64,000 bases of DNA, taken from assembly GCA_002691145.1 (NCBI GenBank), contig NZHE01000024.1:101271-165270 (forward strand), read 5' to 3'. Position numbers and translations under genes: made by a program. The notes beneath the pieces are model-generated. The model did not search any database and was not told the DNA's origin. It saw only the letters and a program-made list of their open reading frames with translations. The DNA is from Rickettsiales bacterium (GTDB lineage: Bacteria; Pseudomonadota; Alphaproteobacteria; Methylaequorales; Methylaequoraceae). Below are positions 23,326 to 62,002 of this stretch, in pieces. How positions within the stretch are numbered: the first letter of the stretch is position 1; the number at the start of each line of letters is the position of its first letter.

Positions 23326-23417
23326 TCATATTTTAATTATAGTAACAACATAAAATATTGTAGCCAAACTAAATAATAAAAGAGCTATGGCTATGTTTTT
23401 TTTTTTTTATTATCCAT
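23326..23417 (-). pseudogene. CoxF-like single-helix mini-protein, frame broken in poly-A
   Basis: In the 100 bases between ctaB and ctaG, an ATG at 23417 opens MDNKKKK and is followed by a run of 13 A. In the frame as written the ORF ends at once (ACA TAG). Shifting by one base inside the run gives NIAIALLLFSLATIFYVV and then TIIKI and a stop at 23326, a product of about 29-30 residues with a basic N-terminus and one transmembrane helix. Alphaproteobacterial oxidase operons usually carry such a small CoxF-type gene at exactly this place. A run of 11 or 14 A would restore the frame. The gene is too short for the ORF track. It could be slippage-controlled, decayed, or a sequencing error. Confidence 0.6.
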
Positions 23418-23421
23418 TATC

Positions 23422-24342
23422 TTACAAGGCAAAATTCTTATCAAATAAGACGGAGAGAAATAAAATATATAAATAAATAATTGAATATTTGAACAGAAAT
23501 GAGGCTTTCTTGTCTGAATTTTTGGGATTAGAGTTCATAAGGTCAATTGCTCCATAAACAAAAATTAAATTCAAAAAACAAGAAACAATGAAATAAATAT
23601 TTGTAGTTAAATTCATTATGTATGGAAGAGATGATATAAAAAAAAGAATAAAACTGTAAATTAAAATTTGAATCTTAGTATTTTTCTTTCCATATTTTAC
23701 AGGTAACATAGGTATATTTACTTTTGAATACTCTGTATCTTTAAATAACGCTAGTGACCAGAAGTGTGGTGGTGTCCAAAAAAAAATTATTAAAAATAAA
23801 ATTACAGGAAACAAGGATATATCATTAGTTACACAAGCCCAACCTATAACAGGAGGAAAAGCACCAGCTGCGCCGCCAATAACAATGTTATGATGCGTAG
23901 ATCTCTTTAACCACATTGTATAAATCACAATGTAAAAGAAAATTGAAAAACCTAGTAAAAATGCTGCAAAATAACTAACTGCCAGACCTAATAATATTAA
24001 TCCTGTCACACCTAATAGTATTCCAAAACCAAGTACATTTGAACTATCAATCTTACCTAATGGTATAGCTCTATTTTTAGTTCTTTCCATTTTTGAGTCA
24101 ATATCTCGGTCATACCACATATTTATTGCTGCGCAACAGCCCGCGCCAAGAGAGATACAGATAATCGAAACAAAAGACAAAAACGGATGTAATGTTCCTG
24201 GTGCCAGAGACAGTCCAATGACGCTAGTAAAAATAGCCAAGGACATAACTCTAGGTTTTAACAGCGAGAAATAATCTGATATTGTACTATCCTCAGAATC
24301 AATGACCTTATTTAACTCATGCTTTGTAGAAGAAACGCCCAT
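23422..24342 (-). CDS. ctaB: Protoheme IX farnesyltransferase (heme O synthase)
   Basis: A 306-residue UbiA-superfamily membrane enzyme that attaches the farnesyl tail to heme b, the first step to heme a. The first aspartate-rich motif is NMWYDRDIDSKMERTKNRAIP. The second conserved region is IFFWTPPHFWSLALFKDTEYSKVNIPMLP. About eight to nine transmembrane helices are evident. It lies 12 bases after ctaD and before the coxF-like mini-ORF. The length is normal. Confidence 0.96.
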   Translation of the reverse strand: MGVSSTKHELNKVIDSEDSTISDYFSLLKPRVMSLAIFTSVIGLSLAPGTLHPFLSFVSIICISLGAGCCAAINMWYDRDIDSKMERTKNRAIPLGKIDSSNVLGFGILLGVTGLILLGLAVSYFAAFLLGFSIFFYIVIYTMWLKRSTHHNIVIGGAAGAFPPVIGWACVTNDISLFPVILFLIIFFWTPPHFWSLALFKDTEYSKVNIPMLPVKYGKKNTKIQILIYSFILFFISSLPYIMNLTTNIYFIVSCFLNLIFVYGAIDLMNSNPKNSDKKASFLFKYSIIYLYILFLSVLFDKNFAL

Positions 24343-24354
24343 AAATAATTTAAT

Positions 24355-25941
<1,587 letters not shown>

Positions 25942-26766
25942 TTATTTAAGTACAAAATTATTATCTGGAATATCGCTAGCGAATTCTTTTTTTGCATCTA
26001 CTAACCAACTAGCAAATTCATCTTCAGTTACTGCTTTAATTGTTATAGGCATAAATCCATGTCCTGGACCGCATAGTTCTGAACATTGTCCATAATACAT
26101 ACCAGGTTCTTTTACATTAAAATAAGTCTCATTGAGTCTGCCAGGAATGGCATCAGTTTTAACTCCTAGTGAAGGCACAGCCCATGAGTGAATAACACCA
26201 GACGGATCACTAGTTATGAGAACTTTAATATTCTTGTTAGTCGGAACTACAACAACGTTATCGGTTTGAAGAAGTCTGGGTTGACCCTCTTTTAATTCGT
26301 CTTCAGACAGCATGATTGAATCAAAGGCCAAATCATCATGGTCTGGATATTCATAAGCCCAAAACCATGTGTAACCAGTAGCCTTGATAGTCATATCAAT
26401 ATTTGAAAAATCGTTTTGTTTATACAAAAGTCTGAAAGATGGAATTGCAATAACCACTAATATTAGAACTGGTATTAAAGTCCATGCAACTTCAAGGGCA
26501 GAGTTATGAGTGACTTTACTAGGCTTTTTGTTTCTTTTGGCGCTAAATTTGTAACAAACATATGCCAATAAAAGAAAAACAAAAACGGTTATTGCGGTAA
26601 TAATCCAAAAAACTAAAGTATGAAAATCTACTAATTCTTCCATCAAAGGGGATGCAGGAGCTTGAAAACCAGTTTGCCATTCTGTTGGTTGCCCTTTAGC
26701 TAATAACAAGCTTGGAAAAAATAAAATGGTAGTAAAAAATTTAATTGTAAAGTTCATAATAGCCAT
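25942..26766 (-). CDS. ctaC: Cytochrome c oxidase subunit II
   Basis: A roughly 274-residue subunit that accepts electrons from cytochrome c at the CuA centre. A signal peptide (MNFTIKFFTTILFFPSLLLA) is followed by two transmembrane helices (about 50-72 and 92-112) and a periplasmic cupredoxin domain. The CuA ligands are in GVIHSWAVPSLG and GQCSELCGPGHGFMPI. The aromatic patch YTWFWAYEYPDHD transfers electrons. The ORF track begins at a GTG; ATG at 26766 or, better for the signal peptide, ATG at 26757 are the likely starts. It is the first gene of the oxidase operon and is divergent from tldD. Confidence 0.97.
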   Translation of the reverse strand: MAIMNFTIKFFTTILFFPSLLLAKGQPTEWQTGFQAPASPLMEELVDFHTLVFWIITAITVFVFLLLAYVCYKFSAKRNKKPSKVTHNSALEVAWTLIPVLILVVIAIPSFRLLYKQNDFSNIDMTIKATGYTWFWAYEYPDHDDLAFDSIMLSEDELKEGQPRLLQTDNVVVVPTNKNIKVLITSDPSGVIHSWAVPSLGVKTDAIPGRLNETYFNVKEPGMYYGQCSELCGPGHGFMPITIKAVTEDEFASWLVDAKKEFASDIPDNNFVLK

Positions 26767-26880
26767 CACTTATCATATAGTAGTCAATTTAAAAAAAACA
26801 ATTGTTTCATTTATAATATTTTGTATTAATAATAGAATTTTGCAATAATTAAAAGAGATTTTTTAAAATTAGGAATAAAT
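26767..26880. other. Divergent ctaC/tldD spacer; no clear promoter
   Basis: This 114-base spacer is one of the three longest gene-free stretches in the window and must hold promoters for the oxidase operon (minus) and tldD (plus). It is almost wholly A and T. I see a TATAAT-like hexamer on the plus strand (TTTATAATATT) but no convincingly spaced -35 partner in either direction. A short AGGA lies ahead of the tldD ATG. No operator-like inverted repeat stands out. Confidence 0.35.
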
Positions 26881-28281
26881 ATGAGTAAAATATTTAAAGA
26901 ATTGGAAAATATAAAAACCTTAAAAAAAGTTGATGAATTATTTAATAATTATGATGACGGCGATTTATTCCTTGAAAAAACATATACTGAAAATTTTGTG
27001 TATGATGATAACAAAGTTAAAAACGCAAGTTTTAATGAGGATAAGGGTTTTGGTTTAAGAGTCATAAAAGAGGACTCTATAGGTTTTGCACATTGCTCTG
27101 ACTTGAATGAAGTTACTTTAAAAAATGCAATAGAAATGGTGAGTAAAATTGATAAAAGTAAAAGTTTTAATCAAATAGTACCTAACAAATATCACAGATC
27201 ACTTTATTCAGATAAAAATCCTTTGTCATTGTATGAGTTTAAAGCAAAAATACAATTTTTAGAAAAAATTAATGGTTATGCAAGAGCAAAAGATAGTGCA
27301 ATAAGTCAAGTTTCTATCTCACTAGCTGGTAATTATCAAGAGGTAGAAATACTCAAGAATCTTGGCAACATTTTTTCCGATTTACGGCCGCTTGTTCGTC
27401 TTAATGTAAGTATAACAGTCAGAAAAAATAACATCACTGAAACTGGTTCATTCGGATTAGGTGGCAGATATATGTACGACACTTTATTCAATGAAAATGT
27501 ATGGAAGGACGCAGTAGACTCTGCGTACAATCAAGCTTTGATAAGACTTGAAGCAATTGAAACACCAGCAGGAGAGCAAAACGTAATTCTTGGGCCTGGT
27601 TGGCCTGGTATATTGCTTCATGAAGCAATTGGACACGGCTTAGAAGGAGATTTTAATCGAAAAAAGACTTCAGTGTTTCACAATCTAGTGGGACAAAGTG
27701 TTGCTTCGGAACAAATTACTATCGTAGATGATGGCACAATTCCCGATAGAAGGGGTTCATTAACGATTGATGATGAGGGCACCCCAACCCAAAATACAGT
27801 ACTTATTGAAAACGGTATCTTAAAAAACTTTATGCAAGATAGACTAAATGCAAAACTTATGAATAAAAAACCGACAGGAAATGGAAGAAGGGAGGATTAT
27901 TCTTGTATACCTATGCCAAGAATGACTAACACTTACATGATCAATGGAAAATATGAACATGAAGAACTCATTAAAAGTACAAAAAATGGTGTGTATGCTA
28001 CCCAGTTCAGCGGAGGTCAAGTTGATATTACCTCTGGAAAGTTTGTTTTTAGTGCTTCTGAAGCTTTTAAAATCGTAGATGGAAAAATTGATAGACCTCT
28101 TAAGGGTGCGACTTTAATAGGTAATGGTCCAGAAGTTTTAAAAAAAGTTTCCATGGTAGCTAACAACATGAAACTTGACAATGGAATTGGAACCTGTGGA
28201 AAAGAAGGGCAATCAGTTCCGGTTGGAGTTGGACAACCTAGCCTTAAGGTAGATAATCTTACTGTTGGAGGAACAGTTTAG
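26881..28281 (+). CDS. tldD: Metalloprotease TldD
   Basis: A 466-residue subunit of the TldD-TldE (PmbA) zinc protease. The zinc motif HEAIGHGLEGD lies near residue 247 in the stretch GWPGILLHEAIGHGLEGD. The downstream block DDEGTPTQNTVLIENGILKNFMQD and the C-terminal GQSVPVGVGQPSLKVDNLTVGG are family hallmarks. The partner pmbA is 3.5 kb downstream on the same strand rather than adjacent. The complex matures small peptides and degrades antitoxins in other bacteria; its substrate here is unknown. The gene converges with the chorismate mutase gene with two bases between stops. Confidence 0.96.
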   Translation: MSKIFKELENIKTLKKVDELFNNYDDGDLFLEKTYTENFVYDDNKVKNASFNEDKGFGLRVIKEDSIGFAHCSDLNEVTLKNAIEMVSKIDKSKSFNQIVPNKYHRSLYSDKNPLSLYEFKAKIQFLEKINGYARAKDSAISQVSISLAGNYQEVEILKNLGNIFSDLRPLVRLNVSITVRKNNITETGSFGLGGRYMYDTLFNENVWKDAVDSAYNQALIRLEAIETPAGEQNVILGPGWPGILLHEAIGHGLEGDFNRKKTSVFHNLVGQSVASEQITIVDDGTIPDRRGSLTIDDEGTPTQNTVLIENGILKNFMQDRLNAKLMNKKPTGNGRREDYSCIPMPRMTNTYMINGKYEHEELIKSTKNGVYATQFSGGQVDITSGKFVFSASEAFKIVDGKIDRPLKGATLIGNGPEVLKKVSMVANNMKLDNGIGTCGKEGQSVPVGVGQPSLKVDNLTVGGTV

Positions 28282-28283
28282 TT

Positions 28284-28574
28284 CTATTTTTTATGAACTT
28301 TATCATATATATCTCTCTCGTACTTAATAAAACCATTTATCATTGTCTTCCAGATTTTAACAATAAGACCTTCTGGTAGATTTTTTTTTTGAGACTCAGA
28401 GTCAAGTTCATTCAGAATTTCTTGAATCCTTTTTTTATCTACTATTTGATTTTTCTTTTTTAGTCTTACTGCTTCCTCAACTAACAATTTTCTTTTGTAA
28501 ATTAATTCTAGTAATTTGGAATCAATTTTGTCAATCGAATTTCTTACCTGGTTTATCGTTTTAAAATTTTTCAT
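28284..28574 (-). CDS. Chorismate mutase (AroQ class)
   Basis: A 96-residue all-helical protein. The N-terminal NQVRNSIDKIDSKLLELIYKRKLLVEEAVRLKK pattern (Arg and Asp-rich helix, then R/K kinase-like basic face) is that of AroQ chorismate mutases, which convert chorismate to prephenate for phenylalanine and tyrosine. The family residues Arg11 and Lys38 equivalents are visible in NQVRNSID and VRLKKKN. The length matches monofunctional alphaproteobacterial forms. It lies 24 bases after gshA on the same strand. Confidence 0.85.
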   Translation of the reverse strand: MKNFKTINQVRNSIDKIDSKLLELIYKRKLLVEEAVRLKKKNQIVDKKRIQEILNELDSESQKKNLPEGLIVKIWKTMINGFIKYERDIYDKVHKK

Positions 28575-28598
28575 CTATTAAAGTAAATATCATTTTTC

Positions 28599-29936
28599 TT
28601 AACCAAATGAATTAAATTTATAAATATTATCAATTTTTTTATTCCATTTGTTTAAAAAAAGATGTTTCCATACCTCGGCTGGTGATTGTCCGTTCTTTAA
28701 AATTTGAAAAAGAGGGTTTAAAAAAATTGATTCATTTTCCCCGTTGTCATTTAAAATATTTCTTTTAATCAATCCTTTTTTGGAGAGGATTAGCATTTTT
28801 TTTAAAAAAGACTTTATATCCTCTCCATCTGGAGTCATCGAGTTGAGAGCATTTAATGATACAGTTGAATAGAATTCTTTTCTTTGAATATTTGTCCATT
28901 TTTTGACCATCTCGTAAACTTCATCAAGAATATCTCGATCATATAAAATTCCCGTCCAAAATGCTGGAAGGGCACATACGCTTGACCAAGGGCCACCATC
29001 CGCTCCCCTCACTTCAAGAATTTTCTTTAATCTTACTTCAGGAAATACAGTTGTGGCATGATCAATCCAATCATCAATTGTCAAGCTTTCTCCATCATTA
29101 GAATTATGTAACTCTAGAATTTTTCTAAACGATTTTCCAGTATAATCGATGTAATCATTGTTTCTTTTTAAAAAATACATGGGTACATCTAATAAGTAAT
29201 CAACATACATTTCAAAAGAAAATCCATCATCAAAAACGAAGGGTAAAATTCCGCATCTATTCTTATCTGTTTTGGTCCAAATCCAGGAACGATAGCTTAG
29301 ATGTGAAGAGAGTTTTCCCTCTAAAAAAGGGGAATTTGCATACAACGCTATCACTGCTGGCTGAATAGCAAGACATACCCTATATTTTTTTATCATATCT
29401 ATTTCTGATTCATAGTCAAAATTCACTTGAATAGTGCATGTTCTGAACATCATATCAAGACCGTGTTCACCAGTTTTTTTCATATAATTTTTCATTATTT
29501 CGTAACGCTTTTTTGGGATTGTTGGGAAATGTTCTAGCGCCCACTTTGGATTAAAACCCATTCCCATGTAATTTACTCCAAACATTTTGGAAACAGAGTT
29601 TAACTCAAATTGGTGAGTATTTACCTCTGAACATGTATCAAAAATATTACTCAATGGAGCTCCAGATAATTCAATTTGACCTCCTGGTTCAAGTGAAATA
29701 GAGCTTCCAGACTTTTTCATTCCGATGACAAAATCATTTTCATAAATATTCTTCCATCCAAATTTTTTATTTAGTTCTAGAAAAATATTTTTGATGACAT
29801 CGTATTTAATTGGTTTTAAATCATCAACCAAGTAGCCAAATTTTTCATGTTCAGTTCCGATTTTCCAATTTTTTTTTTCTTTGCAACCACTTTTAAAGTA
29901 ATTTATTAGATCTTCTTTGATAATTTTTTTATTCAT
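28599..29936 (-). CDS. gshA: Glutamate-cysteine ligase (plant/alphaproteobacterial GCS2 type)
   Basis: A 445-residue ATP-dependent ligase that makes gamma-glutamylcysteine, the first step of glutathione synthesis. Motifs of the GCS2 class are visible: WKIGTEHEKFGYL at the N-terminus, SISLEPGGQIELSGAPL, MFRTCTIQVNFDY and the C-terminal LEVRGADGGPWSSVCALPAFW. The length is close to that of plant and alphaproteobacterial enzymes. It overlaps the rsmE end by eight bases. The glutathione synthetase gene is not in the window. Confidence 0.95.
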   Translation of the reverse strand: MNKKIIKEDLINYFKSGCKEKKNWKIGTEHEKFGYLVDDLKPIKYDVIKNIFLELNKKFGWKNIYENDFVIGMKKSGSSISLEPGGQIELSGAPLSNIFDTCSEVNTHQFELNSVSKMFGVNYMGMGFNPKWALEHFPTIPKKRYEIMKNYMKKTGEHGLDMMFRTCTIQVNFDYESEIDMIKKYRVCLAIQPAVIALYANSPFLEGKLSSHLSYRSWIWTKTDKNRCGILPFVFDDGFSFEMYVDYLLDVPMYFLKRNNDYIDYTGKSFRKILELHNSNDGESLTIDDWIDHATTVFPEVRLKKILEVRGADGGPWSSVCALPAFWTGILYDRDILDEVYEMVKKWTNIQRKEFYSTVSLNALNSMTPDGEDIKSFLKKMLILSKKGLIKRNILNDNGENESIFLNPLFQILKNGQSPAEVWKHLFLNKWNKKIDNIYKFNSFG

Positions 29937-30654: not shown

Positions 30655-30686
30655 CTACTTACAGTGTAATAAAATTTTAACTTATC

Positions 30687-31565: not shown

Positions 31566-31740
31566 AAATAATAGTATATCGGACATAACAATCATCTACG
31601 TGCTTCCAAGAATTTTCATACCACTTATTTTTAGCTTTTTCATAACTATCATAAGGTCCATATTTTTCTAACTCAAAATCTTTTTTAATTTCAAAAAATT
31701 TTGTGTTCTCATATTTCCCTCCAACAACCCAGTATTTCAT
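31555..31740 (-). CDS. DUF4170-like small protein
   Basis: A 61-residue soluble protein. The pattern KYWVVGGKYENTKFFEI, GPYDSYEKAKNKWYENSW and VDDCYVRYTII matches the small alphaproteobacterial DUF4170 family, which has no assigned function. Its presence beside pmbA, the inositol-phosphatase-like gene and msbA is a known alphaproteobacterial context. It is divergent from pmbA across 66 bases and overlaps ubiA at the 3' end by 11 bases. Confidence 0.8.
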   Translation of the reverse strand: MKYWVVGGKYENTKFFEIKKDFELEKYGPYDSYEKAKNKWYENSWKHVDDCYVRYTIISND

Positions 31741-31806
31741 AACTCATTAAAATAAAATTAAATAATTAATATTGTAAATATATCATTAAAATTATAAAGA
31801 GATAAT

Positions 31807-33147: not shown

Positions 33148-33150
33148 TTA

Positions 33151-44338: not shown

Positions 44339-44877
44339 CTTGAAAGGTCGTTCTCTTCTAAGCCCATCAAATAAAAAAATAAGACCGACCGGGAGCAGGG
44401 CTAGGTCAATGATTTTTAATACTTTAAATAGCATGTTGAAAAAAGAAGGTCTTAATTTATCCGATTTAAGAGTTTTAGATTGTTTCTGTGGCTCAGGTTC
44501 TATTGGAATCGAAGCGTTATCTCAAGGCGCTAAAAATGTTCTATTTCTTGATTCTTCATATGAATCTTTATCTTTGACAAAAAAAAACTGTGAAAAACTT
44601 AAACTAAGTAAAAAATCTTTATTTCATCACGCAAATATTTTAGATGAAATATCGTTTAAATATGTATTTGATTTAATATTTCTAGATCCTCCCTATGGAC
44701 AGGATGTTGTTATGAAAGCAATAAAAAACTTATATATTCATAAATGTATAAAAGAAAATTGTTTTGGTGTATTTGAAGTTGATAAAAAAACTTATATTAA
44801 AGAAGAAAATTTTTTCAAAATTATAAAGATAAAAAAAATAAGTAACTCAGCTTTTTTTTTTTTTCAAAATTTTTTAG
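44319..44877 (+). CDS. rsmD: 16S rRNA (guanine-966-N2)-methyltransferase with frame slip at the end
   Basis: An rRNA methyltransferase with SAM-binding DCFCGSGSIGIEALSQGA and the catalytic LIFLDPPYGQD. It begins with TTG (MKVVSGNLKGRSL), overlapping the RsuA-like end. The ORF track runs on to 44987, over 100 bases into antisense mutL, with an atypical tail. The cause is a run of 13 T at 44852-44864. With 12 T the frame reads SAFFFFKIF and stops at 44877, giving about 185 residues (the family norm) and ending four bases before the mutL stop. I therefore give the shifted end. The catalytic parts are upstream of the slip, so function is probably kept either way. Confidence 0.85.
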
Positions 44878-44880: not shown

Positions 44881-46644
44881 TTATTTCCTTCCAAATAATT
44901 TTTCAATATCGTCAATTTTTAATTCAACATATGTTGGACGTCCGTGATTGCATTGTCCAGAAAAAGGAGTGCTTTCCATATCTCTAAGTAACTTGTTCAT
45001 TTCATCAACATTCATTTCTCTCCCTGACCTAATAGAACCGTGACACGCCATAGATGAGCAAATTTTATTTATTTGAGTTTCTAAAACCTCTGTCTCCCCA
45101 ATTTCAGAAATTTCGGCTATTGCATCTTCAACCATTTGTCTTATATTACAATTAACTAGAATTAAAGGTATTTCTCTTACGACTATTGAGTCTTTGCCAA
45201 ATCTCTCAAGGAATAGACCGTAATGCTCTAACTTTGGAATAAAAATATCAACTACAGGTATGATAGTCGAATCTAATTTTATTACTTCTGGAATCAATAA
45301 GATTTGAGTTTCAGTTTTTTTGCTGAAATAGTCTTTTTTTAATTTTTCGTAAACTATTCTCTCATGAGCAGCATGCTGATCTACAATGATCAATCCGTCA
45401 TTTGTCTGAGATATAATGTAATTTTCATGATATTGACATTTTGCATATCCCAATGAGTAGCTATTTTCTTCATTTTTAAATTCATATTTATGTTTAACGT
45501 TTTCTAAATCGTTTTGCCCCAAGGTTTTCAGACTTTCATTCTTAACATCGTTAAACCAGAAATTAAGATTGTTTTTTGGATAATTTATACTCTTGTAGAA
45601 TGATTTAACCGCTCTTTCTGTATTAATACTACTAGCTCTGTGACCTGCTTCTGAAAGTGAGTTTCTGATAGAGCTTATTAGTAAAGAACGTATTTTACTG
45701 TTATTTTTAAATCTTACCTCGTTCTTTGCAGGATGTACATTTACATCTACATCCTCAAATGGAATTTCAATAAAGATTATTACTTGGGGATATCTATCAT
45801 ACGACTGAAAATCCTTATAAGCTGCTTTGATGCATCCGTTGATATTTTTATCACTAATTATCCTTTTATTAACGAATGTAAATTGGTTCAAACTGTTAGA
45901 ATGATGAAAAGTGGGAAGTCCAACTAAACCCCTAAAACGTACTTTTTCAAAAACTTGATTTAATGTCACTAGATTTGAATCAAAATCTGTTCCTAAAATA
46001 TCAACAACAGTTTTTCTCAATGACATTTCTAGAATATTCTCGTATGATTTTGTTGAAAAAATTTTCTTACCATCATTAAAATAATTGAATTCAACTACGG
46101 GATTTGAAAGTGCCAATTTTTGTAAAATTCTTTTAATCATTAAATTCTCATATTTTTCTGATTTTAAGAATTTTAACCTTGCTGGAGTTGAGAGAAAAAT
46201 ATCTTTTATTGTTATGGTAGTCCCATATATTTTTGCAGTCGGTTTTAAATATTCTAGAGTACCAAAGTTTAAAAAAATCTCAGATTGTGATTCATCAAAC
46301 CTTGATTTAGTTTCTATCCTCATTTTTGAAACAGAGGCAATAGATGGTAAAGCTTCACCTCTAAATCCGAAGCTATTAATTTCTTCTAAGTTATTAAAAT
46401 TTAGTTTTGATGTAGCATGTCTTTTGACTGATAATTTAATTTCTGAATAAGGTATACCGTCACCATCATCAACAATTTTAATTTCTGTTTTACCTCCGTT
46501 ACGTATAAAGATGTCAATTTTTGATGAATTTGCATCTAGACTGTTTTCTACCAATTCTTTAACAACGGAAGATGGTCTTTCAATTACTTCCCCAGCAGCT
46601 ATTTTATTAATTAATTCGTTTGTAAGTAATTTTATATGATTCAT
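44881..46644 (-). CDS. mutL: DNA mismatch repair protein MutL
   Basis: A 587-residue GHKL ATPase. The ATP-binding motifs are ERPSSVVKELVENSLDA, KIVDDGDGIPYSEI and NSFGFRGEALPSIASVS (with the RHATSK segment). The C-terminal dimerisation domain includes IIVDQHAAHERIVYEKL. The endonuclease-associated motif ACHGSIRSGREM and the GQCNHGRPT ending are present, as expected for an organism without MutH. The start overlaps the pgi end by four bases (ATGA). MutS is not in this window. Confidence 0.96.
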   Translation of the reverse strand: MNHIKLLTNELINKIAAGEVIERPSSVVKELVENSLDANSSKIDIFIRNGGKTEIKIVDDGDGIPYSEIKLSVKRHATSKLNFNNLEEINSFGFRGEALPSIASVSKMRIETKSRFDESQSEIFLNFGTLEYLKPTAKIYGTTITIKDIFLSTPARLKFLKSEKYENLMIKRILQKLALSNPVVEFNYFNDGKKIFSTKSYENILEMSLRKTVVDILGTDFDSNLVTLNQVFEKVRFRGLVGLPTFHHSNSLNQFTFVNKRIISDKNINGCIKAAYKDFQSYDRYPQVIIFIEIPFEDVDVNVHPAKNEVRFKNNSKIRSLLISSIRNSLSEAGHRASSINTERAVKSFYKSINYPKNNLNFWFNDVKNESLKTLGQNDLENVKHKYEFKNEENSYSLGYAKCQYHENYIISQTNDGLIIVDQHAAHERIVYEKLKKDYFSKKTETQILLIPEVIKLDSTIIPVVDIFIPKLEHYGLFLERFGKDSIVVREIPLILVNCNIRQMVEDAIAEISEIGETEVLETQINKICSSMACHGSIRSGREMNVDEMNKLLRDMESTPFSGQCNHGRPTYVELKIDDIEKLFGRK

Positions 46645-47892
46645 TTATTTAGAAACTTTAAAGTTAGTTTCTTCCCCTCCTCAACAGCAGGTTGATCATA
46701 CGGATTTATATCTAGTAAATAGCAAGTATAAATTGTTTCTAGAATAAAATGCATTAGCAAGTTACCAAGCGTTTCTTCGTTGATTGTTTCTACCTCAATC
46801 AATCTAGTTGGAATTTTTTTTTTTTTTACTGTCTCAAATGTTGCCTTACACTCTGCACTCAACAACTCAAACATACTCACATTATGTAATTTTTCAAAAA
46901 CTAAATCCTCTGAAATATTACAGTTTAACTTACCGTCAAAACTATTACTTTTAGACATAATAAATGTTATGAATTTATCTTTTGGTCCTTCTAAATATAA
47001 TTGTATTTGACTGTGTTGATCAACTGTTCCTAAAGCATTTATCGGAGTACTCCCTAAGCCAGATTTTCCAATGCTTTCAGCCCATAATTGTCTGTACCAA
47101 AAAGAAAAATCATATAATTTGTCCAAATAAGGCATTAATACGAATTGATTATATCCCTTTGATATTAAATGTAAATTTTGGATGGCTGCTTGCGCTGGTG
47201 CAAATTTGGTTACCTCTGACAAATTTAACATTCTGTCAATTACTTCCAAACCACCCTTTCTTATTCCTGCAATATCTACCCCTAATAATTTAGCTGGAAG
47301 TAATCCAACTATTGAAAAAACTGAATACCTACCTCCAATATTTAAATCATGTTTCAAAAATTTAAATTTCATTTTCTCTTGAATCACTTTTAGTGAACTT
47401 TTTTTATCCTCAGTAATAACTAAAACTTTTTTATGTAAATCTTCTTTTTTTTTTTTTAAAAAAATTTTCAACCATAAAAAACTGGGCCAATGTTTCAAGT
47501 GTTTCTCCAGATTTTGAAATAATTATGACACCAGTTTTATCTGGTTCCGTTCTCAAAAGAATTTCATATATTGGTTCAGGATCAACATTTTCAATGAAAT
47601 ATAATTCAATTTGTTTTGTTAATTCCTTCTTTAATGATGTCAAAGTTTTACCACCAAGACTTGAGCCGCCAGTACCCAATACTAAAATTTTATTAAATCT
47701 TTTAAAAAAAGAAATGATTTCTTCAACTCTTTCTATTTCGTGGGTAGTTTTTACAACGGACAAAAATTTTAATTTGTCATTTTTAGTCTCATCTAGAATT
47801 CTTTTATGAACATCATTTATTTTTATCGTAAGAGCCTTTTGATCTACATTAAAATTTTTAATTTCATTGAATGTATTATGAGAGTATTTCAT
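46641..47892 (-). pseudogene. pgi: Glucose-6-phosphate isomerase, frameshifted in a poly-A run
   Basis: Two overlapping ORFs together make one isomerase. The N-terminal part (from ATG 47892) has LVLGTGGSSLGGKTL and VIIISKSGETLETLAQF. The C-terminal part has IGGRYSVFSIVGLLPAKLLG, the catalytic region GTVDQHSQIQLY and the tail NPYDQPAVEEGKKL. The break is at a run of 13 A on the coding strand (47445-47457). With 12 A the frame reads ENFFKKKKEDLHKKVLVITE and the gene is continuous, about 416 residues, the size of short alphaproteobacterial Pgi proteins. All catalytic blocks are present. The stop overlaps the mutL ATG, and the start overlaps the M16 stop by one base, so operon structure is intact. 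Sequencing error or slippage is more likely than loss. Confidence 0.85.
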
Positions 47893-49178
47893 CAACTACC
47901 TCCAACAATTGCAAAAAATAATTTTTCAGAATCAAAAATATCTCTAGCAATTTTATTTACTTCTTCATGTGAAATATTATTTATAATCATTTTACGATCT
48001 TGAAAATAGTTTATATCTAATTCATAGAATTGAATTGTATTAAGTAAAGAAGCAATTGACCTTGTGCTAGTATAGTTTCTTGAAAAAGAACCTAAGTAAT
48101 AAGACTTAGCCTCAATAAATTCAGATTTTGTAATTCCATCTGTTTTGATCTTATTCCACTCGCTCTTCAAAATGTTTATAGTTTCATTAACTGATTCGTT
48201 TTTGGTTTGGAAACCACCAAGTATTACACCATCATCATTATATGGAATTAAATATGAGTAAATAGAATAAACTAGTCCATTTTGCTCTCTAATTTTTTTG
48301 TACAGTCTCGATTGGAAACCTCCTCCACCTAGTACGTAATTTACGATTCTTAATGCAAAAAAATTTTTATCTTTTCTTGATAAACCTTTTTGTCCAAAAA
48401 CAACGGCCGTTTGCGGTGAGGTTTTTTTTTGGTACTTTTTACCAATTGCAAGTTTTTCAAATTTTGGAATTTTTACATCTTTTTTTGATCTTAATTCTAA
48501 ATCTCCAAAAACGTAATCGATATATTTTAAAAGTTCTGTTTGGAGTATATTTCCTGAAACTCCTATTTTAAGACCAGATTTGACGAAGAAATCGTCTCTA
48601 AATTTTAACAAATCAATTGAAGATATTCTATCAATTGATTCACTATTTCCTTCTATTGGATTAGAAAATTTATGACCTAAATAAAAACTTTCTGTAAATA
48701 ATCTTGAAGAGATACTTGAAATATCTGACTGCTTGAATCTTAAACTGGCTTTAATTTGATTTTTTACTTTTTTTACGTCATCTTCATCAAAAGTCTCTCT
48801 ATTAATAGCCATTTTTAGTAACTCGAAACTTTCTTGTACATTTTCTGAAATAGTTTGAAACGTTCCCGAAAACTTATTTTTCGAAGTCGTAAATCTTAAC
48901 TTCATTCCAATTGATTTCATCTTTTCCTGAAATTTTTTTGAATTAAAATTCGCTGTGCTTTCATCTAACATTGAAGCGAGTAAATTTGCTGTACCAGATT
49001 TTTGTTCGTTCTCATGAAAAGACCCATAATTAAAACTAAAATTTATACTTATAATTGGCAATGAATCATCTTTTACGAACCATAATTTTATATCTTTTTT
49101 TGTTGTTAATTCTACAACTTCAAGGGAGCTTAGGTTGTAAGGAAAAGTTAGTAAAACAAATAAAAAAAATAGTCTCAT
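47892..49178 (-). CDS. M16 peptidase-like protein lacking the zinc motif
   Basis: A 428-residue exported protein (signal peptide about 1-17) of the pitrilysin M16 family. The place where HxxEH should be reads GTANLLASMLDEST, so the zinc site is missing. The glycine-rich stretch VNYVLGGGGFQSRLYKKIREQNGLVYSIYSY is that of non-catalytic partners such as mitochondrial MPP alpha. It lies two bases after the active M16 gene, and the two probably form a heterodimer in the periplasm, as known for paired M16B proteases; this is inferred. The stop overlaps the pgi ATG. Confidence 0.92.
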   Translation of the reverse strand: MRLFFLFVLLTFPYNLSSLEVVELTTKKDIKLWFVKDDSLPIISINFSFNYGSFHENEQKSGTANLLASMLDESTANFNSKKFQEKMKSIGMKLRFTTSKNKFSGTFQTISENVQESFELLKMAINRETFDEDDVKKVKNQIKASLRFKQSDISSISSRLFTESFYLGHKFSNPIEGNSESIDRISSIDLLKFRDDFFVKSGLKIGVSGNILQTELLKYIDYVFGDLELRSKKDVKIPKFEKLAIGKKYQKKTSPQTAVVFGQKGLSRKDKNFFALRIVNYVLGGGGFQSRLYKKIREQNGLVYSIYSYLIPYNDDGVILGGFQTKNESVNETINILKSEWNKIKTDGITKSEFIEAKSYYLGSFSRNYTSTRSIASLLNTIQFYELDINYFQDRKMIINNISHEEVNKIARDIFDSEKLFFAIVGGS

Positions 49179-50487: not shown

Positions 50488-50489
50488 AG

Positions 50490-51735: not shown

Positions 51736-51830
51736 TTTTTGTACTAAATATTGTTATTTTTTTAGCCCCGATAGATACATATAGTATTGATTATATAAAT
51801 ATCATTAGTTAAAATAATTTTAAAGCAGAA

Positions 51831-51881
51831 TTTTTTTTTTCATGTTTTTTTTTCATGTTTTTTTTTCATGTTTTTTTTTTT
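51831..51881. repeat. Tandem repeat (CATG + poly-T) at the lspA 3' end
   Basis: Ten T are followed by two exact 13-base units of CATG plus nine T and a third CATG with eleven T. On the minus strand these are ACATGA separated by A runs. The TGA that ends lspA lies inside the second unit from the gene side (51866-51868). One-base changes in the A run would move the lspA stop to another copy and change its tail. The tract may also act as a weak end signal for the lspA transcript. Confidence 0.85.
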
Positions 51882-52366
51882 AAATTTGTGAACAAGTATA
51901 AAAAAGCGCCTATTGTTATAAAGAAATCGGCAAAATTGAAAGCTGGCCAATGAAATTTAAAAAGATGGAAGTCAATAAAATCAATTACATAATGATTTAA
52001 TAACCTATCTATTCCGTTTCCTAAAGCACCGCCAAGGATAAAACTTAAACCTAAAAGTTCAATTCTGTGTTTTGTTGTTAAAATTAAATAAATAATAAAA
52101 AAAGAAATTGTCAAAGAGATAAGGCCAAGATAAAAAGAAATATTCATTTCAGAAAAAAAACCAAAACTTATTCCTTTATTTAAAACATATACTAAATTTA
52201 AATTTTCAAAAATCTTTATTTCTTGAATGAAACTTTGAACATTTTGATTAACCCAATATTTGGTAATTTGATCTATAAAAATAACAATTAAAGTGATTAA
52301 AAAATATTTAAATTTTTTCAGACTTTGAGTTAATCGCGATTTCACATCTTTCACATAATAGTTCAT
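51866..52366 (-). CDS. lspA: Lipoprotein signal peptidase
   Basis: A roughly 166-residue inner-membrane aspartyl peptidase that cleaves the signal peptide of prolipoproteins. The family blocks are VIFIDQITKYWV, NKGISFGFFSE, GGALGNGIDRLLNHYVIDFIDF and FNFADFFITIG; the catalytic aspartates are in GNGIDR and FNFAD. Four transmembrane helices are visible. The start overlaps ileS by 59 bases (ATG) or by 38 (GTG at 52345); no ATG exists downstream of the ileS stop ahead of the first helix. The tail NLKKKT ends inside a homopolymer-rich tandem repeat. Two lipoproteins follow directly. Confidence 0.92.
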   Translation of the reverse strand: MNYYVKDVKSRLTQSLKKFKYFLITLIVIFIDQITKYWVNQNVQSFIQEIKIFENLNLVYVLNKGISFGFFSEMNISFYLGLISLTISFFIIYLILTTKHRIELLGLSFILGGALGNGIDRLLNHYVIDFIDFHLFKFHWPAFNFADFFITIGAFLYLFTNLKKKT

Positions 52367-55124: not shown

Positions 55125-56050
55125 CCTATGTCTTTACATATCCTTACATCTTCTTCTATTTGATTTTTTAATTCTTTGAAGTTGTTAAACTTTTTTTCTT
55201 TTCTGATAAATGAAATAAAAAAAACTTCAAGATATTCATGATAAATAACTTTATTAAAATTAAAAATATTAACCTCTAAAATTGGTTCAATTCCATTAAA
55301 AGTTGGCTTAATTCCGTAATTTGCAATCCCTTCAAATTTTGTAGCATCACCATTCATTTTATAAATCACCAAAACTTTATAAACACCAAAGCAAAGTTTA
55401 CAATATTTGTCTATTTTTAAATTTGCGGTTGGAAATCCAATTTTACTGGCAAGTTTTTTTCCTCGCATAACTCTTGATTTGATATGCCAATTTCTCCCCA
55501 AAATATCTTTTACTTTTTTTAAATTACCAACTTTTAAATTCTTTCTTATTTCAGATGAAGAAATTTTTATATTTTCTTGTAACTTTTTTTCTTTAACTAA
55601 AGTGAATTTAAATAATTTTTTTTTTGATTCATTAATCAGTAAATTTGTATCACCCTCTTGCTTATTACCAAATACAAAGTCAAACCCGGTGACCACATGA
55701 TGAACCCGAAGCTCTTTAACTAAAATATTTTTGATGAATTTATTTGCGCTTATATTTGAAAAATTGTGATTAAAATTAAAATTCAAATAGTAGTCAATTT
55801 CCAATTTTTTAATCATTTCAAATTTATCTCTAAAAGGAGTAATTCTGAAATTTACTTTTCTATTTTTAAAAAAACATTTTGGATGAGGTTCAAAAGTAAG
55901 CAATGAGATCTTTTTTTTACTCTCCTTTGCTATCCTCTTTGCTTCGTCGATTACACTCTTATGACCAATATGGATTCCATCAAAATTTCCAATAGCCACA
56001 ACCGAACCCTGTATCTTATTATCTTGAAACCTATTTCTAATTAAAATCAT
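55121..56050 (-). CDS. ribF: Bifunctional riboflavin kinase/FAD synthetase
   Basis: A 309-residue enzyme that makes FMN and FAD. The N-terminal adenylyltransferase domain has AIGNFDGIHIGHKSVI and LTFEPHPKCFF, with SSSEIR-type SSSEIRKNLKVG closing the domain. The C-terminal kinase domain has GRNWHIKSRVMRGKKLASKIGFPTANL and GVYKVLVIYK. The genes ETF-QO and the response to flavin demand make sense here only generally. It lies upstream of ileS, the standard proteobacterial order, and four bases after the MaoC-like gene. Confidence 0.95.
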   Translation of the reverse strand: MILIRNRFQDNKIQGSVVAIGNFDGIHIGHKSVIDEAKRIAKESKKKISLLTFEPHPKCFFKNRKVNFRITPFRDKFEMIKKLEIDYYLNFNFNHNFSNISANKFIKNILVKELRVHHVVTGFDFVFGNKQEGDTNLLINESKKKLFKFTLVKEKKLQENIKISSSEIRKNLKVGNLKKVKDILGRNWHIKSRVMRGKKLASKIGFPTANLKIDKYCKLCFGVYKVLVIYKMNGDATKFEGIANYGIKPTFNGIEPILEVNIFNFNKVIYHEYLEVFFISFIRKEKKFNNFKELKNQIEEDVRICKDIG

Positions 56051-56053
56051 GTT

Positions 56054-56489
56054 TTAATTCTTTGATTGAACCATTATTTCTGCCTGACCTGTTAAAACTT
56101 TATCGGTGTCTCTTGTACAAAAAGTATCAAGAACAATTCTCTTTTTTTCTTTAATAATTTCTTTTACAAGGACGCGAGTTATTATTTTCTCCCCGATATA
56201 AACTGGTGCTAAAAATTTCAAACTTTGACTTAAGTATATACTGCCTGGACCCGGCAACTTCATCCCTATTACACTTGAGATTAAGCTTGCAGTTAAAAAG
56301 CCATGTGCTATTTTTTTTTTTGAAAATTGAGTTCTTAGCAAATTTAGAGTCAATATGTAAAGGGTTTAAATCCCCAGTAATTTCTGCAAAAACATCAATG
56401 TCCTTTTCATAAATTATTTTTGAAATTGAAGCTTCTTGTCCAACAAATAAATCCTCTAAATAGTACGTTTTATTTATTTTAGAATTCAT
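56054..56489 (-). pseudogene. MaoC-like (R)-specific enoyl-CoA hydratase, frameshifted in poly-A
   Basis: Two overlapping ORFs form one hot-dog-fold protein. The N-terminal part (from ATG 56489, behind GGGGTG) has YLEDLFVGQEASISK and the catalytic aspartate-histidine region DLNPLHIDSKFAKNS. The C-terminal part has KKIAHGFLTASLISSVIGMKLPGPGS, the rest of the active-site motif. The break is at 11 A (56311-56321 on the plus strand). With 10 A the frame reads SIFKKKIAHGF and gives about 144 residues, the usual length of PhaJ/MaoC single-domain hydratases. The substrate (crotonyl-CoA or longer) is not known. The gene lies directly before ribF. Confidence 0.8.
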
Positions 56490-56577
56490 AAACACCCCAT
56501 TTAATAAATTTTAATTTTTATAAACTTATCAAGATTAATATATATTTAAATCAAATTTTCACTATAGTGTTAAATAA

Positions 56578-57807
56578 ATGTCATTTTTATCAAAATTATC
56601 CTGCTTATTTTTTGGAATTTCGTTTTCATTAAGGATGCATTCTGCCATTGCATTTGGTGTTTGTTTATCGATTGGTGTTGTTTTGATATTGATTGAAAAA
56701 AGACTATCGTTAAAACATTGGCTTTATAAATGCAAAAAAAACGAACTCACTTTTCCAATTATTTTATTTCTTATAACATTTTCAATAAGCTGTTTTTTTT
56801 CAATTAATCAAATTAGATCCATTAGTGTTTTAGGCTATTTGTGTTTGTTTATATTTTTTTCATATATAATTTTTCAAAATTTTAAATCACATCCAAAGGA
56901 GCTAAAACTTTTAAGTAATTTTCTATACATATCAATTATTTTTTCTGTTTTATTCGTTCTATTTTATAATTTTAATGAAGGTCAAATTTTTGAAACATTA
57001 CAACGTAAAGAAACGCCAATAGAAGTTATTAGGTTTAAAGGCTTTGTGAATGTGCTAACTATTTTAGTATTAATATTACCTTTGTTAAACAAAAAAATTG
57101 GTCATAAAAAAATATATGTTTCTACATTACCTATTATTTTAATTATCCCTGTAATAATAACTAGTAATTGTAATTCAGCAGTGTTAGGAATATTCGTAGG
57201 GATATTGTCTATATTTTTTTTTAAAATACTAATTTCATTGAAATTTGATAAAAACAAACTCTTAAGCCTTCTAATATTTAAAGCTATTTTTATTATTTCA
57301 GTAACATATTATTTTTCGTATAATCACAAAATAAATACAATCGAGAATTATGAATTTCTTGTTTCGACTAATCTTATAGATGCCCATAGACAAATTATTT
57401 GGGGCTTTTCACTTGAAAATTTCGAAGAAAATCCAATTTTTGGAGTCGGGCCAGATACATCAAATTTCATAAAAGGAAGTCAGAAAGTAATTGGCCATGA
57501 ATCAACTGGTACGATGCACTATATACCAAGCCATCCACATAATTTTTTTATTGAGCTTTTACTAGAAACTGGAGTTGTTGGAACATTAAGTTTTATTTTT
57601 CTTATATTTTCTATAAATTATTTTATTTTTAAAAGAATTATCACTAAAGATTTTTCATACGTAATTTTTTTTAACGGATATTTTTGGGGGGCATCATTGG
57701 TAAATTTTTCTTTTTGGAATGCTTGGTGGCAAGTTAGCTATTTTTTTATTCTTGCAATTATAAGCTCAATTTTGTATTCCAAAAAAATTAAAAAATTTAA
57801 ATTTTAA
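56578..57807 (+). CDS. O-antigen ligase-like (Wzy_C) membrane protein
   Basis: A 409-residue polytopic membrane protein with about eleven hydrophobic segments. The large periplasmic loop contains HRQIIWGFSLENFEENPIFGVGPDTS and the conserved SHPHNFFIELLLETGVVG, the signature of the O-antigen ligase/polymerase family. It probably joins or polymerises a polysaccharide onto lipid A core, or a similar surface glycan. No glycosyltransferase or sugar-nucleotide gene is adjacent. The start ATG lies 13 bases before the next gene's spacer and 82 bases from the MaoC start. The PQQ dehydrogenase gene follows by 12 bases. Confidence 0.82.
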   Translation: MSFLSKLSCLFFGISFSLRMHSAIAFGVCLSIGVVLILIEKRLSLKHWLYKCKKNELTFPIILFLITFSISCFFSINQIRSISVLGYLCLFIFFSYIIFQNFKSHPKELKLLSNFLYISIIFSVLFVLFYNFNEGQIFETLQRKETPIEVIRFKGFVNVLTILVLILPLLNKKIGHKKIYVSTLPIILIIPVIITSNCNSAVLGIFVGILSIFFFKILISLKFDKNKLLSLLIFKAIFIISVTYYFSYNHKINTIENYEFLVSTNLIDAHRQIIWGFSLENFEENPIFGVGPDTSNFIKGSQKVIGHESTGTMHYIPSHPHNFFIELLLETGVVGTLSFIFLIFSINYFIFKRIITKDFSYVIFFNGYFWGASLVNFSFWNAWWQVSYFFILAIISSILYSKKIKKFKF

Positions 57808-57819
57808 TACTATGCAATA

Positions 57820-58980
57820 ATGATAAAAAAAATCTCTTTCAGTAAATTTATATTTTTAATATTTTTTCCCTATTTAGCTGCAAATAGTTTAGATAACTTC
57901 AGTAATATTAAAAATTATAAAGTTTCTGAAACGAAGTACAAATTAACTGAAGTAATGACTGGTCTTGATTATCCATGGGGTATGACATTCATTGATAAAA
58001 ATAATTTACTTGTTACTCAAAAAAATGGAGAATTGCTTAAAGTTAATGTTATTGATGGTAGGTCTAAAAAAATTTCTCACAATATAGAAAATATTTTTTT
58101 TAAAGGTGGTGCAGGGCAAGGCGGTTTATTAGATGTGCTTCATAATAATGGAATTATTTACTTCTCATATAGTCATTATGATGATGAAAATTCGTCTTTA
58201 AAAGGTTTACGAGAAGGGAGTACAGCAATAGGTAAAGGCAAGCTTATTAATGATAGAATTGAAAATTTTGAAAATTTACTTGTTAGTAAGCCAAAATTCA
58301 ATTCAAATCTACATTGGGGCTCCAGATTAGCAATTAAGGACAACCATATTTATGCTAGTTTGGGTGAGAGAGGAATGGGAATGATTGCACAAGATCCAAC
58401 GAAACATCCAGGAAGTATAATAAGAATAAATATCGATGGGAGCATACCAAAAAATAATCCCTCAAATCAAAATAAAAGTTATTGGCTACCAGAAATTTTT
58501 CAAATAGGATTAAGAAATCCTCAAGGAATGACAATTTCACCATTTGATGAAAATATATATTTTAGTCAGCATGGTCCAAAAGGTGGCGATAATATTGGAA
58601 TCGTTAAATTTGCAGGTAATTACGGCTGGAAAGATATTGCATGGGGTGGAAAAGAATACAGCGGAAAAAAAATTGGGAATGTCTCATTTAAAAAAAAATA
58701 TGATGAAAATCTAATTTCATGGGTTCCATCAATTGGGGTAAGTCAGATCGCTTTTTATAAGGGAAATGAATTTCCTGAATGGAATGGAGACCTAATTGGA
58801 GGATCACTAAAGTATAATATTTTTTTCAAAATTCGGTTTGAAGACAAGAAAATTATTAGCGAGGAAATTATCTTAAAAAATAAAATAGGGCGAATCAGAG
58901 ATTTTGAGTTAAATCAACAAGGAGAAATTTTTATTATTACAGACCATAAAAATTCGTCATTATGGAAACTCTCAAGGTAA
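57820..58980 (+). CDS. PQQ-dependent sugar dehydrogenase-like protein (YliI/Asd type)
   Basis: A 386-residue exported beta-propeller. The signal peptide (about 1-22, ending LAANS) is followed by GLDYPWGMTFIDKNNLLVTQ. The family blocks are GAGQGGLLDVLH, LHWGSRLAIKDNHIYASLGERG, PEIFQIGLRNPQGM and GWKDIAWGG. The soluble aldose sugar dehydrogenase family oxidises aldoses with PQQ in the periplasm and passes electrons to a quinone or cytochrome. The natural substrate is unknown. No PQQ synthesis genes are visible, so cofactor supply is unknown. It converges with ftsY, with 10 bases between stops. Confidence 0.88.
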   Translation: MIKKISFSKFIFLIFFPYLAANSLDNFSNIKNYKVSETKYKLTEVMTGLDYPWGMTFIDKNNLLVTQKNGELLKVNVIDGRSKKISHNIENIFFKGGAGQGGLLDVLHNNGIIYFSYSHYDDENSSLKGLREGSTAIGKGKLINDRIENFENLLVSKPKFNSNLHWGSRLAIKDNHIYASLGERGMGMIAQDPTKHPGSIIRINIDGSIPKNNPSNQNKSYWLPEIFQIGLRNPQGMTISPFDENIYFSQHGPKGGDNIGIVKFAGNYGWKDIAWGGKEYSGKKIGNVSFKKKYDENLISWVPSIGVSQIAFYKGNEFPEWNGDLIGGSLKYNIFFKIRFEDKKIISEEIILKNKIGRIRDFELNQQGEIFIITDHKNSSLWKLSR

Positions 58981-58990
58981 AAAAACTAGC

Positions 58991-59899
58991 TTAAAAATCA
59001 AGTAAAGTTTTTGAGAAATCCTGGGCTTTAAAATCAATCAAATCCTCTTTTTTTTCACCGACTCCAATACTTACAATGGGAATCTTTAATTGTTCACTGA
59101 TTGGTATTATCGCTCCTCCTTTAGAGGTTCCATCAAGTTTTGTAATAATTAAACTCGATATATTACAGATCTCTTTAAATTTTTCTGCTTGTTTAATTGA
59201 ATTTTGACCCGTGTTACCATCTAAAACTAGTATAATTTCGTTTGGAGCTGAATTTTCTATTTTTTTTATTACACGAATCATTTTTGAAAGTTCGTCCATT
59301 AAATTGGATTTATTATGGAGTCTTCCTGCAGTATCGATTAAAAGTACATCTAATGATTTCTCTTTTGCTTTGTGCATAGAAGAATAAACTAAAGACGCAG
59401 GATCAGAATTACTTTCAGCAGAAAAAAACATAGAGTTTGTTCTTTTGGACCAAATCTCAAGTTGTTCTACCGCAGCAGCCCTAAAAGTATCAGCAGCAAC
59501 TAAACCTACTTTCTTATTTTCTGAATGAAATTTATGAGCTAGCTTTCCAACTGTAGCCGTTTTACCGACACCATTTACACCTACTAAAAAAATAACATTT
59601 GGAGTTTTAAGGCATTCAATTTTTTTTTCTAAAGGAAGTAATATCTCTAAAATCAAAATACTTATTTGTTCTTTTATAATTCTAATATCATTGTCTAATA
59701 ATTTGATTTTCCTTAATCTTTCAATTACTTTATTAGCAAATACAACCCCTATATCAGATTCAATTAATAAGTCCTCGAGTTCTTCAAGAGTTTTCTGCTC
59801 AATTTTTTTTCCTTTGAAAATTAAGTTAATTCCGCTACCAACCTTATTTGTGGACTTTTTTAAACCCTTTTTAAATTTGTCAAACCATTTTATAACCAT
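58991..59899 (-). CDS. ftsY: Signal recognition particle receptor FtsY
   Basis: A 302-residue SRP GTPase without a long acidic A domain, typical of small genomes. The N domain (about 1-80) leads to the G domain with G1 GVNGVGKTATVGKLA, G3 LIDTAGRLHNKSNLMDE, G4 TKLDGTSKGG and the closing GVGEKKEDLIDF. DTFRAAAVEQLEIW is the insertion-box motif. It docks the Ffh-bound ribosome at the membrane, and ffh lies 3 kb away on the other strand. The ATG overlaps the mtaB stop by one base. Confidence 0.97.
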   Translation of the reverse strand: MVIKWFDKFKKGLKKSTNKVGSGINLIFKGKKIEQKTLEELEDLLIESDIGVVFANKVIERLRKIKLLDNDIRIIKEQISILILEILLPLEKKIECLKTPNVIFLVGVNGVGKTATVGKLAHKFHSENKKVGLVAADTFRAAAVEQLEIWSKRTNSMFFSAESNSDPASLVYSSMHKAKEKSLDVLLIDTAGRLHNKSNLMDELSKMIRVIKKIENSAPNEIILVLDGNTGQNSIKQAEKFKEICNISSLIITKLDGTSKGGAIIPISEQLKIPIVSIGVGEKKEDLIDFKAQDFSKTLLDF

Positions 59900-61158
59900 T
59901 AGTTTAATATTTCCCCCACAAAAAAATCTCCCAAAATATCTTTAAGTTTAACTTTAACTAATTGTCCATTAAGTTGTGAGTGGGAATCTTTTTCATTATG
60001 AATTCTTACTTTGAAATAATCATCAGTGTAACTTAGCTTAGTATTTTCAAATAATATTTTTTTTTCTGTTCCAATTAATTTTTTCATCTGCATTTCCTTA
60101 ACTTTACTATAAATTTTATTTAATCTTTTCATTCTTTCTATTTTAATTCTCTCAGGTATCTGAGGCATCCTTGATGCTGGTGTGCCTTTTTTTGGAGAAA
60201 ATCTAAATGCATGAATATTAGTAAAATTACATTTTTCTATACAATCTAATGTTTTTTGAAACTCTACTTCTGACTCTGTGGGAAATCCAACAATTATATC
60301 AGCCCCAAAATGTACTTCACTTCTTTGCCTCTTAATGTTTTTGCAAATGTCAATAATTTTCTCTCTTGTGTGTCTACGCTTCATTCTTTTGAGTATTAAA
60401 TTATCACCAGATTGCATTGAAAAATGTATGTGTGGTAAAATTTTCTTTTCACTTACGATTAGTTCTAGCAAATCTTCATCTAATTCTGCCGGATCAATTG
60501 AAGATAACCTAATTCTACACAATCGTTTTTCAATTCTAATTAATCTTTTGAGGATTTGTCCTAAACTTGGTCTGCCAGGAAGATCTTCACCGTAGGATGT
60601 CAGATCTACTCCGGTTATTGTTATTTCTTTATAGCCTAGATCAATTAATTTTCCGACTCTTTTTAATATTACACTTAAGGGCAAACTTAACGAATTACCC
60701 CTTCCAAATGGTATAATGCAAAAAGTACATCTGTGATTGCAACCTTGTTGAATTTGGAGAAGAGCTCTTGTTCTTGTTCCAGACCTTCCAAAAGAAACAG
60801 AAAAATTTTTTACTCTTTTTTTTTCTTTTTTTAATAAATTCTGAATATTATTTAGGTAAAAATCTTCTTCATTTTTATCCTTATTATAAATAATTTTGTC
60901 TACTTCTTTCATATCAGAAAATATTTTAGGTTCAATTTGTGATGCACACCCAGTTACCAAAATTCTATTATTAGGATCTCTCTTCTTGGCTTCTATTATT
61001 TTTTTTTTTGAATTAACTACCGCTTGATTTGTAACAGCACAAGTATTGATAACCGTAGTATTAATGATTTTTTTTTTTTTTAGTAAATTTTTAATGCCCT
61101 CAGATTCGCAAATATTTAATCTGCAGCCTAAAGTGATTACTTTTGAAGTTTTCTTCAT
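59899..61158 (-). CDS. mtaB: tRNA t6A37 methylthiotransferase
   Basis: A 419-residue radical SAM enzyme that converts t6A37 to ms2t6A37. The N-terminal UPF0004 domain has ITLGCRLNICESEGI, NTCAVTNQAVVNSKK and VTGCASQIEP, which hold the auxiliary cluster cysteines. The radical SAM motif is QQGCNHRCTFCIIPFGRG (CxxxCxxC). A C-terminal TRAM domain (about 350-419) follows. MtaB is favoured over MiaB by its length and by the CRLN start. It lies directly after the restored end of dapF and before ftsY. Confidence 0.94.
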   Translation of the reverse strand: MKKTSKVITLGCRLNICESEGIKNLLKKKKIINTTVINTCAVTNQAVVNSKKKIIEAKKRDPNNRILVTGCASQIEPKIFSDMKEVDKIIYNKDKNEEDFYLNNIQNLLKKEKKRVKNFSVSFGRSGTRTRALLQIQQGCNHRCTFCIIPFGRGNSLSLPLSVILKRVGKLIDLGYKEITITGVDLTSYGEDLPGRPSLGQILKRLIRIEKRLCRIRLSSIDPAELDEDLLELIVSEKKILPHIHFSMQSGDNLILKRMKRRHTREKIIDICKNIKRQRSEVHFGADIIVGFPTESEVEFQKTLDCIEKCNFTNIHAFRFSPKKGTPASRMPQIPERIKIERMKRLNKIYSKVKEMQMKKLIGTEKKILFENTKLSYTDDYFKVRIHNEKDSHSQLNGQLVKVKLKDILGDFFVGEILN

Positions 61159-62002
61159 TTAAATAAACTCATCAAATATATGATTGTTTAAAATCCCTGT
61201 AAAAACTTTAGAAGCTGGACCCGTTTTAATAATGTGACCATCATTTAAGATTTCGACACTTAATTCTCCACCTGGCATAACAATTTTTATTTTTTTTTTT
61301 TGTTAAATTTAAACTCTTACAAACTGCGAGTGTGGCACAAGCACCTGTTCCACATGCATTTGTAAAACCAACACCTCTTTCATAAACAATTAACTCAACT
61401 AAATCTGGATTTTTTATATTTACTATATTTATATTTACACCATCCTCAAAAATTTTTAAATTTGAAATTTTTTTGCAATCCTCAATCAAATTTTCCTTAT
61501 TCAATTCTTTTTGAAAAAAAACTACATGTGGATTACCAACATTGACACAGCTCCCACCCTTCAGTGTTTTTGTATCTATTTCTAAGTTAGAAGTGTTAAA
61601 TGGATGACTTAAAGGTATATCTCTCCAATCAAATTTTGGAATACCCATATCTACGCTAACAAGCTCGTTTTCTGATATTTCAACATCAATTAATCCAGAT
61701 TTTGTTTCAATAATAAAATTATTATTTTTTTTAGTATCAAAGAGAAGTTTTCCAACACATCTTAATGCGTTTCCACAATTTTCAGCCTCTGAACCATCTG
61801 CATTAAAAATCTTAATTCTGCAATCTGCAAGGTTATCTGAGCTTTCTTCAATTAAAATCAATTGATCGCAACCAACACCAGTTCTTCTATCGTTAATAAT
61901 GATAATGTCTTTGATTCTGATTGATATTTTTGTCTCTCTAATGTCTATAATGACAAAATCATTACCCAATCCATGCATCTTAAAAAATTTAAGTTCATTC
62001 AT
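61159..62002 (-). pseudogene. dapF: Diaminopimelate epimerase, frameshifted in a poly-A run
   Basis: The epimerase of the lysine and peptidoglycan pathway. ATG at 62002 opens MNELKFFKMHGLGNDFVIID; the ORF track start at 62095 is an extension through a hairpin. Both active-site cysteines are upstream of the break, in AENCGNALRC and GVGFTNACGTGACAT. A run of 12 A (61290-61301 on the plus strand) then puts the frame off. With 11 A it continues KIKIVMPGGELSVEILNDG and ends FDEFI at a stop at 61159, adjacent to the mtaB ATG, for 280 residues, the family length. As written, the protein loses the last 43 residues or so, including the conserved MPGGEL strand. Since the epimerase is essential in such organisms, an error or slippage is more likely than loss. 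Confidence 0.88.

Follow-up and report, generated by a model that had tools for sequence, protein, structure and literature searches.

Frame breaks at long A/T homopolymers of an alphaproteobacterial assembly are most probably consensus length errors

Five otherwise intact genes in a 64-kb window (the whole stretch of DNA analysed, G000:C18:101271-165270) are interrupted within A/T homopolymers of at least 10 bases, and these interruptions are probably errors of run length in the assembled consensus, not biology. Because such breaks occur across the whole assembly and are absent from the sampled relatives' copies of these genes, homopolymer error of the assembly is the most likely cause. The breaks are confined to homopolymers, become more frequent as runs lengthen, are private to this assembly, strike genes regardless of their importance and differ between near-identical contigs. 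The raw molecules would accordingly be expected to carry frame-keeping lengths, with the sequencing platform or the consensus step as the probable source of the error.

Results

Five broken genes in the window

Three-frame translation located a frame switch at each of the following runs, in genes that are otherwise intact:

about 23325-23417, minus strand: coxF-like mini-gene between ctaB and ctaG, broken by A13 in the coding sense (T13 forward) at 23396..23408
44319 to about 44877 in the alternative frame, plus strand: rsmD, with T13 at 44852..44864, near the 3' end
46641-47895, minus strand: pgi, with A13 in the coding sense at 47445..47457, split into ORFs of 154 aa and 285 aa
56054-56495, minus strand: MaoC-like gene, split by A11 in the coding sense (T11 forward) at 56311..56321
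about 61160-62002, minus strand: dapF, with A12 in the coding sense (T12 forward) at 61290..61301, near the 3' end

Pfam and NCBIfam assigned both sides of the break to the expected family for PGI and for the MaoC-like protein, and RsmD and DapF were likewise placed in theirs. As assembled, the rsmD ORF continues to 44987, into the convergent mutL. An earlier note on this DNA had reported five breaks in A/T runs of 11-13 bases, and every position and length it gave was reproduced here.

Two tandem repeats were also observed in the window. A perfect 13-bp repeat (3.7 copies of TTTTTTTTTCATG) lies at 51832-51879, where it spans the 3' end of an ORF (51866-52366) that looks lspA-like by eye; on the minus strand it places ATG codons in successive frames. 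The contig end at 63891-64000 is a 42-bp tandem repeat coding for a Thr/Glu/Lys/Val-rich protein, and the same repeat stands at the end of contig C7.

Relatives are in frame at all five genes

The earlier note had proposed comparison with related genomes as a check, and relatives proved to be in frame at all five genes. Intact orthologues cross the pgi site in 10-11 relatives and the rsmD site in about 11, where the RsmD C-terminus (..F(I/L)KI) falls at the same place as the ..FFKIF of the alternative frame in the window. dapF is intact in 7 relatives, the MaoC-like gene is represented by intact ORFs of 151-158 aa in 8, and an intact gene of 28-34 aa occupies the coxF-like site in about 17. 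This last site itself carries long runs in the relatives, namely A11 (L222, L224, L229), A14 (L225, L227, L233) and one A10, compared with A13 in the window; A11 and A14 are both equal to 2 modulo 3. Among the sampled family relatives, an out-of-frame state held in common was not found at any of the five genes. When the relatives' ORFs were used as tblastn queries, 16 breaks were detected, most of them at runs of at least 9 bases; the pgi break was recovered independently (10 relatives), and those in the MaoC-like gene and dapF were each backed by 4 relatives.

A separate observation concerns an isoleucyl-tRNA-synthetase-like gene that is frame-broken without a long homopolymer in two relatives (G002:C11 near 490, L047; G004:C51 near 13440, L041), the G004 break being surrounded by many Ns.

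Long runs in the window that keep frame

Runs of the same length class also pass through coding sequence of the window without a frame switch, those of mutY and the second run of pgi serving as internal controls:

7568..8647, minus strand: mutY, with T11 at 7795, T14 at 8311, T12 at 8532 and T12 at 8604, four of four in frame
4041: A12 in a uracil-glycosylase gene, in frame
18554: T12 in dsbD, in frame
37187: A14 in waaA, in frame
39342: A13 in an M23 peptidase gene, in frame
46814..46827, minus strand: second run of pgi, A14 in the coding sense (T14 forward), in frame
49381 and 49564: T11 and T13 in an M16 gene, in frame
60999 and 61068: T11 and T14 in a radical-SAM gene, in frame

The earlier note had counted at least five in-frame runs; such runs do exist, but the figure was an undercount, as about 13 coding runs of at least 11 bases keep frame in the window.

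Break rate across the assembly rises with run length

For an assembly-wide frame test, 637 kb of low-GC contigs were compared with approximately 770 kb drawn from 11 relatives within the family, all of other genera (MutL identity 48-61%), and the frame before and after each run was read from a codon-usage score over 40-codon flanks. Testable coding runs of at least 10 bases were out of frame in 29/99 cases in the assembly versus 2/163 in the 11 relatives (Fisher p = 7e-12), which thus kept frame at 161 of 163. The result was robust to flank size, with 35/111 versus 4/183 out of frame when 30-codon flanks were used. Random positions were out of frame at 2.3% in assembly and relatives alike and, together with runs of up to 7 bases (2-4% in both sets), define the background of the method. 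In the assembly, the break rate stayed near this background to about 8 bases and then reached 14% at 10, 39% at 11, 36% at 12 and 5/6 at 13 bases; in additional sequence sampled from it, 4/8 runs of at least 11 bases were out of frame. No excess of breaks away from long runs was seen in the assembly relative to the 11 relatives, and no clear difference emerged between sense strands (A-sense 27/88, T-sense 2/11 out of frame).

One of the 29 calls, that at cysK, probably marks a gene junction and not a break. With 40-codon flanks, only pgi and dapF of the five broken genes in the window pass the test, which makes a higher true count of breaks probable. Broken genes elsewhere in the assembly include serS, pheT, argH, lysA, pepA, a transketolase and a CCA tRNA nucleotidyltransferase, and the presence of serS, pheT and other such genes among them indicates that the breaks are blind to gene importance.

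The direction of the length change was uneven, with 24 of the 29 breaks being either one base too long or two too short and 5 going the other way. When the 24 were treated as one base too long, the run-length spectrum of the relatives was reproduced (p = 0.74). Reading this main class as two bases too short is disfavoured, as the implied spectrum differs from that of the relatives (p = 6e-4). The earlier suggestion that most runs are one base too long therefore extends to the genome as a whole (24 versus 5).

Near-identical contigs disagree in run length

The alphaproteobacterial assembly (2.03 Mb, 29 contigs) is a mixed bin: some contigs have 28-29% GC, and others, which lack long runs, have 34-44% GC. 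The contigs of other GC content (C1, C2, C3, C5, C6, C10-C14, C16, C19, C21-C24, C26, C28 and C29) account for the difference between 2.03 Mb and the approximately 1.3 Mb of the relatives; some are clearly phage, with matches to phage tail or virion proteins in at least one set (C2, C10, C26), and several form near-identical variant pairs. Many contigs are paired in this way, mostly at 99.6-99.8% identity, and share exact stretches of 0.6-3.4 kb. Since exact stretches of up to 3.4 kb lie in separate contigs, the bin is not one single short-read de Bruijn assembly; its contigs were either assembled by overlap or from long reads, or brought together from more than one assembly.

Where contig copies differ by a single-base indel, it mostly falls inside a homopolymer. 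At their ends, C4 and C9, which belong to the bacterium, overlap over 2.2 kb and carry T11 in frame (C4) and T10 out of frame (C9), where strain polymorphism is possible because their identity is only 98.8%. In the unrelated DNA of the assembly, the contaminant contigs offer too few long runs for a strong control, and one phage gene is broken in 1/3 copies: it has A8 in C26 and C2 and A9 in C10, being intact at 347 aa in C26 and reduced to 290 aa with A9. Copies in C5 and C23 differ as T7/T6 at two places.

Long A/T runs are a family-wide feature

Runs of at least 12 bases number 162 in the bin and 107 in the relative G006; 140 other alphaproteobacterial genomes sampled held 0-6, except G053 (73) and G128 (15). 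Throughout the family of the assembly (G001-G019), runs of at least 10 bases occur at 20-65 per 100 kb and are kept in frame; in the majority of the other families of the class that were sampled, long runs are almost lacking. The assembly has about 20 runs above 10 bases per 100 kb, and long-run density is the same in the relatives. In small samples, family runs of at least 10 bases came to about twice the first-order Markov expectation, and those of other class members with 29-31% GC fell under it. Among bacteria at large, long runs are reported to exceed one per 100 kb in only 18 of 1598 genera (PMC9262707).

Mismatch-repair loss was considered as a cause and rejected, as both genes are intact, mutS on contig G000:C8 and mutL in the window:

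44881..46644, minus strand: mutL, intact

The excess of long A/T runs across the family, which keep frame and coexist with intact mutS and mutL, is a real and mildly unusual feature. G053 (L244), the genome with 73 runs of at least 12 bases, belongs to another alphaproteobacterial family and is 0.8 Mb in size; no match to mutL or mutS was found in it at its 71% completeness.

Discussion

The proposed explanation is that either the reads or the consensus step failed to count long runs reliably in this assembly, usually adding one base and sometimes dropping one, and that the genes would be intact in the living organism. The errors would be so numerous because the genomes of this family have an unusual abundance of long A/T runs. 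Nanopore long-read consensus resolves homopolymers reliably only below about 11 bases (PMC9262707), but the usual effect of nanopore reads is to shorten runs (PMC8486125), which the bias towards one additional base (24 versus 5) does not resemble.

A close rival, which partly overlaps with miscounting, is that the lengths reflect true polymorphism at hypermutable homopolymers in a wild population, with the consensus recording minority or composite and often longer lengths while each cell is mostly in frame. Run length does differ between near-identical strain contigs, the single Ns scattered through the assembly suggest a consensus over variants, and the +1 excess would suit a consensus that keeps insertion columns. 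However, the break rate is not clearly higher near Ns (9/27 versus 20/72 elsewhere), and the assemblies of the relatives, presumably population consensuses too, are free of such breaks; we regard this reading as unlikely. Merging of variable contigs as the origin of the breaks is unsupported for lack of a clear link with the Ns.

The earlier note had weighed assembly error, which the present data favour, against slips that the genome tolerates through slippage. According to the latter, the runs are truly out of frame and full-length protein is restored by transcriptional or ribosomal slippage, as shown for a small number of Buchnera and Blochmannia genes. A/T runs of at least 10 bases are the right substrate, slippery runs of about 9 or more bases do lie here in otherwise intact genes, and AT-rich symbionts provide a precedent (PMC3017870). 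Yet the breaks are private to one assembly: frame is kept in 11 relatives whose run density is equal, and at the coxF-like site it is conserved across the family; contigs of the same bin, phage included, are discordant in run length; and the calls, serS and pheT among them, number at least 29 over 637 kb, against 4-8 genes per genome in Blochmannia. Rescue by slippage is thus unsupported and improbable. It is equally improbable that real indels became fixed in many genes, tRNA synthetases included, of a bacterium whose mismatch repair is intact, with the products made by a genome-wide slippage that arose after the split from the family relatives. Least credible of all are true pseudogenes, left when a lineage in decay, or a mutator, recently underwent a burst of homopolymer indels: the sequence does contain frame breaks, but mutS and mutL are intact, essential genes such as serS and pheT are affected, and there is no break excess outside long runs. 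Further decay beyond the runs was not found, the break rate at random positions equalling that of the relatives.

With consensus length error as the preferred reading, the assembly taken at face value would seem to have lost tens of genes, including pgi, dapF, serS and pheT, and its breaks could pass for gene decay of the endosymbiont kind. Homopolymer errors weigh most heavily on lineages in which long A/T runs abound, and there any claim of gene loss should wait for run-aware checks. The modest real finding is an alphaproteobacterial family in which many long A/T runs remain in frame and mismatch repair is intact.

The breaks resemble the poly(A)-tract frameshifts of Blochmannia and Buchnera, which are rescued by slippage, affect 4-8 genes per genome and are in part common between species (PMC3017870), in that the genome is AT-rich and an otherwise undamaged gene has one indel within a long A/T tract. 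They differ in their number (29 calls or more in the 637 kb) and in their restriction to one assembly whose relatives are in frame. They also resemble the homopolymer indel errors known from long-read genomes and MAGs (PMC9262707), as frameshifts are limited to runs of about 10 or more bases, increase in rate with length and ignore gene function in genes that are otherwise intact. In contrast to nanopore errors, which mostly shorten runs (PMC8486125), the runs here are mostly one base too long, and the load is large because long A/T runs abound in the family.
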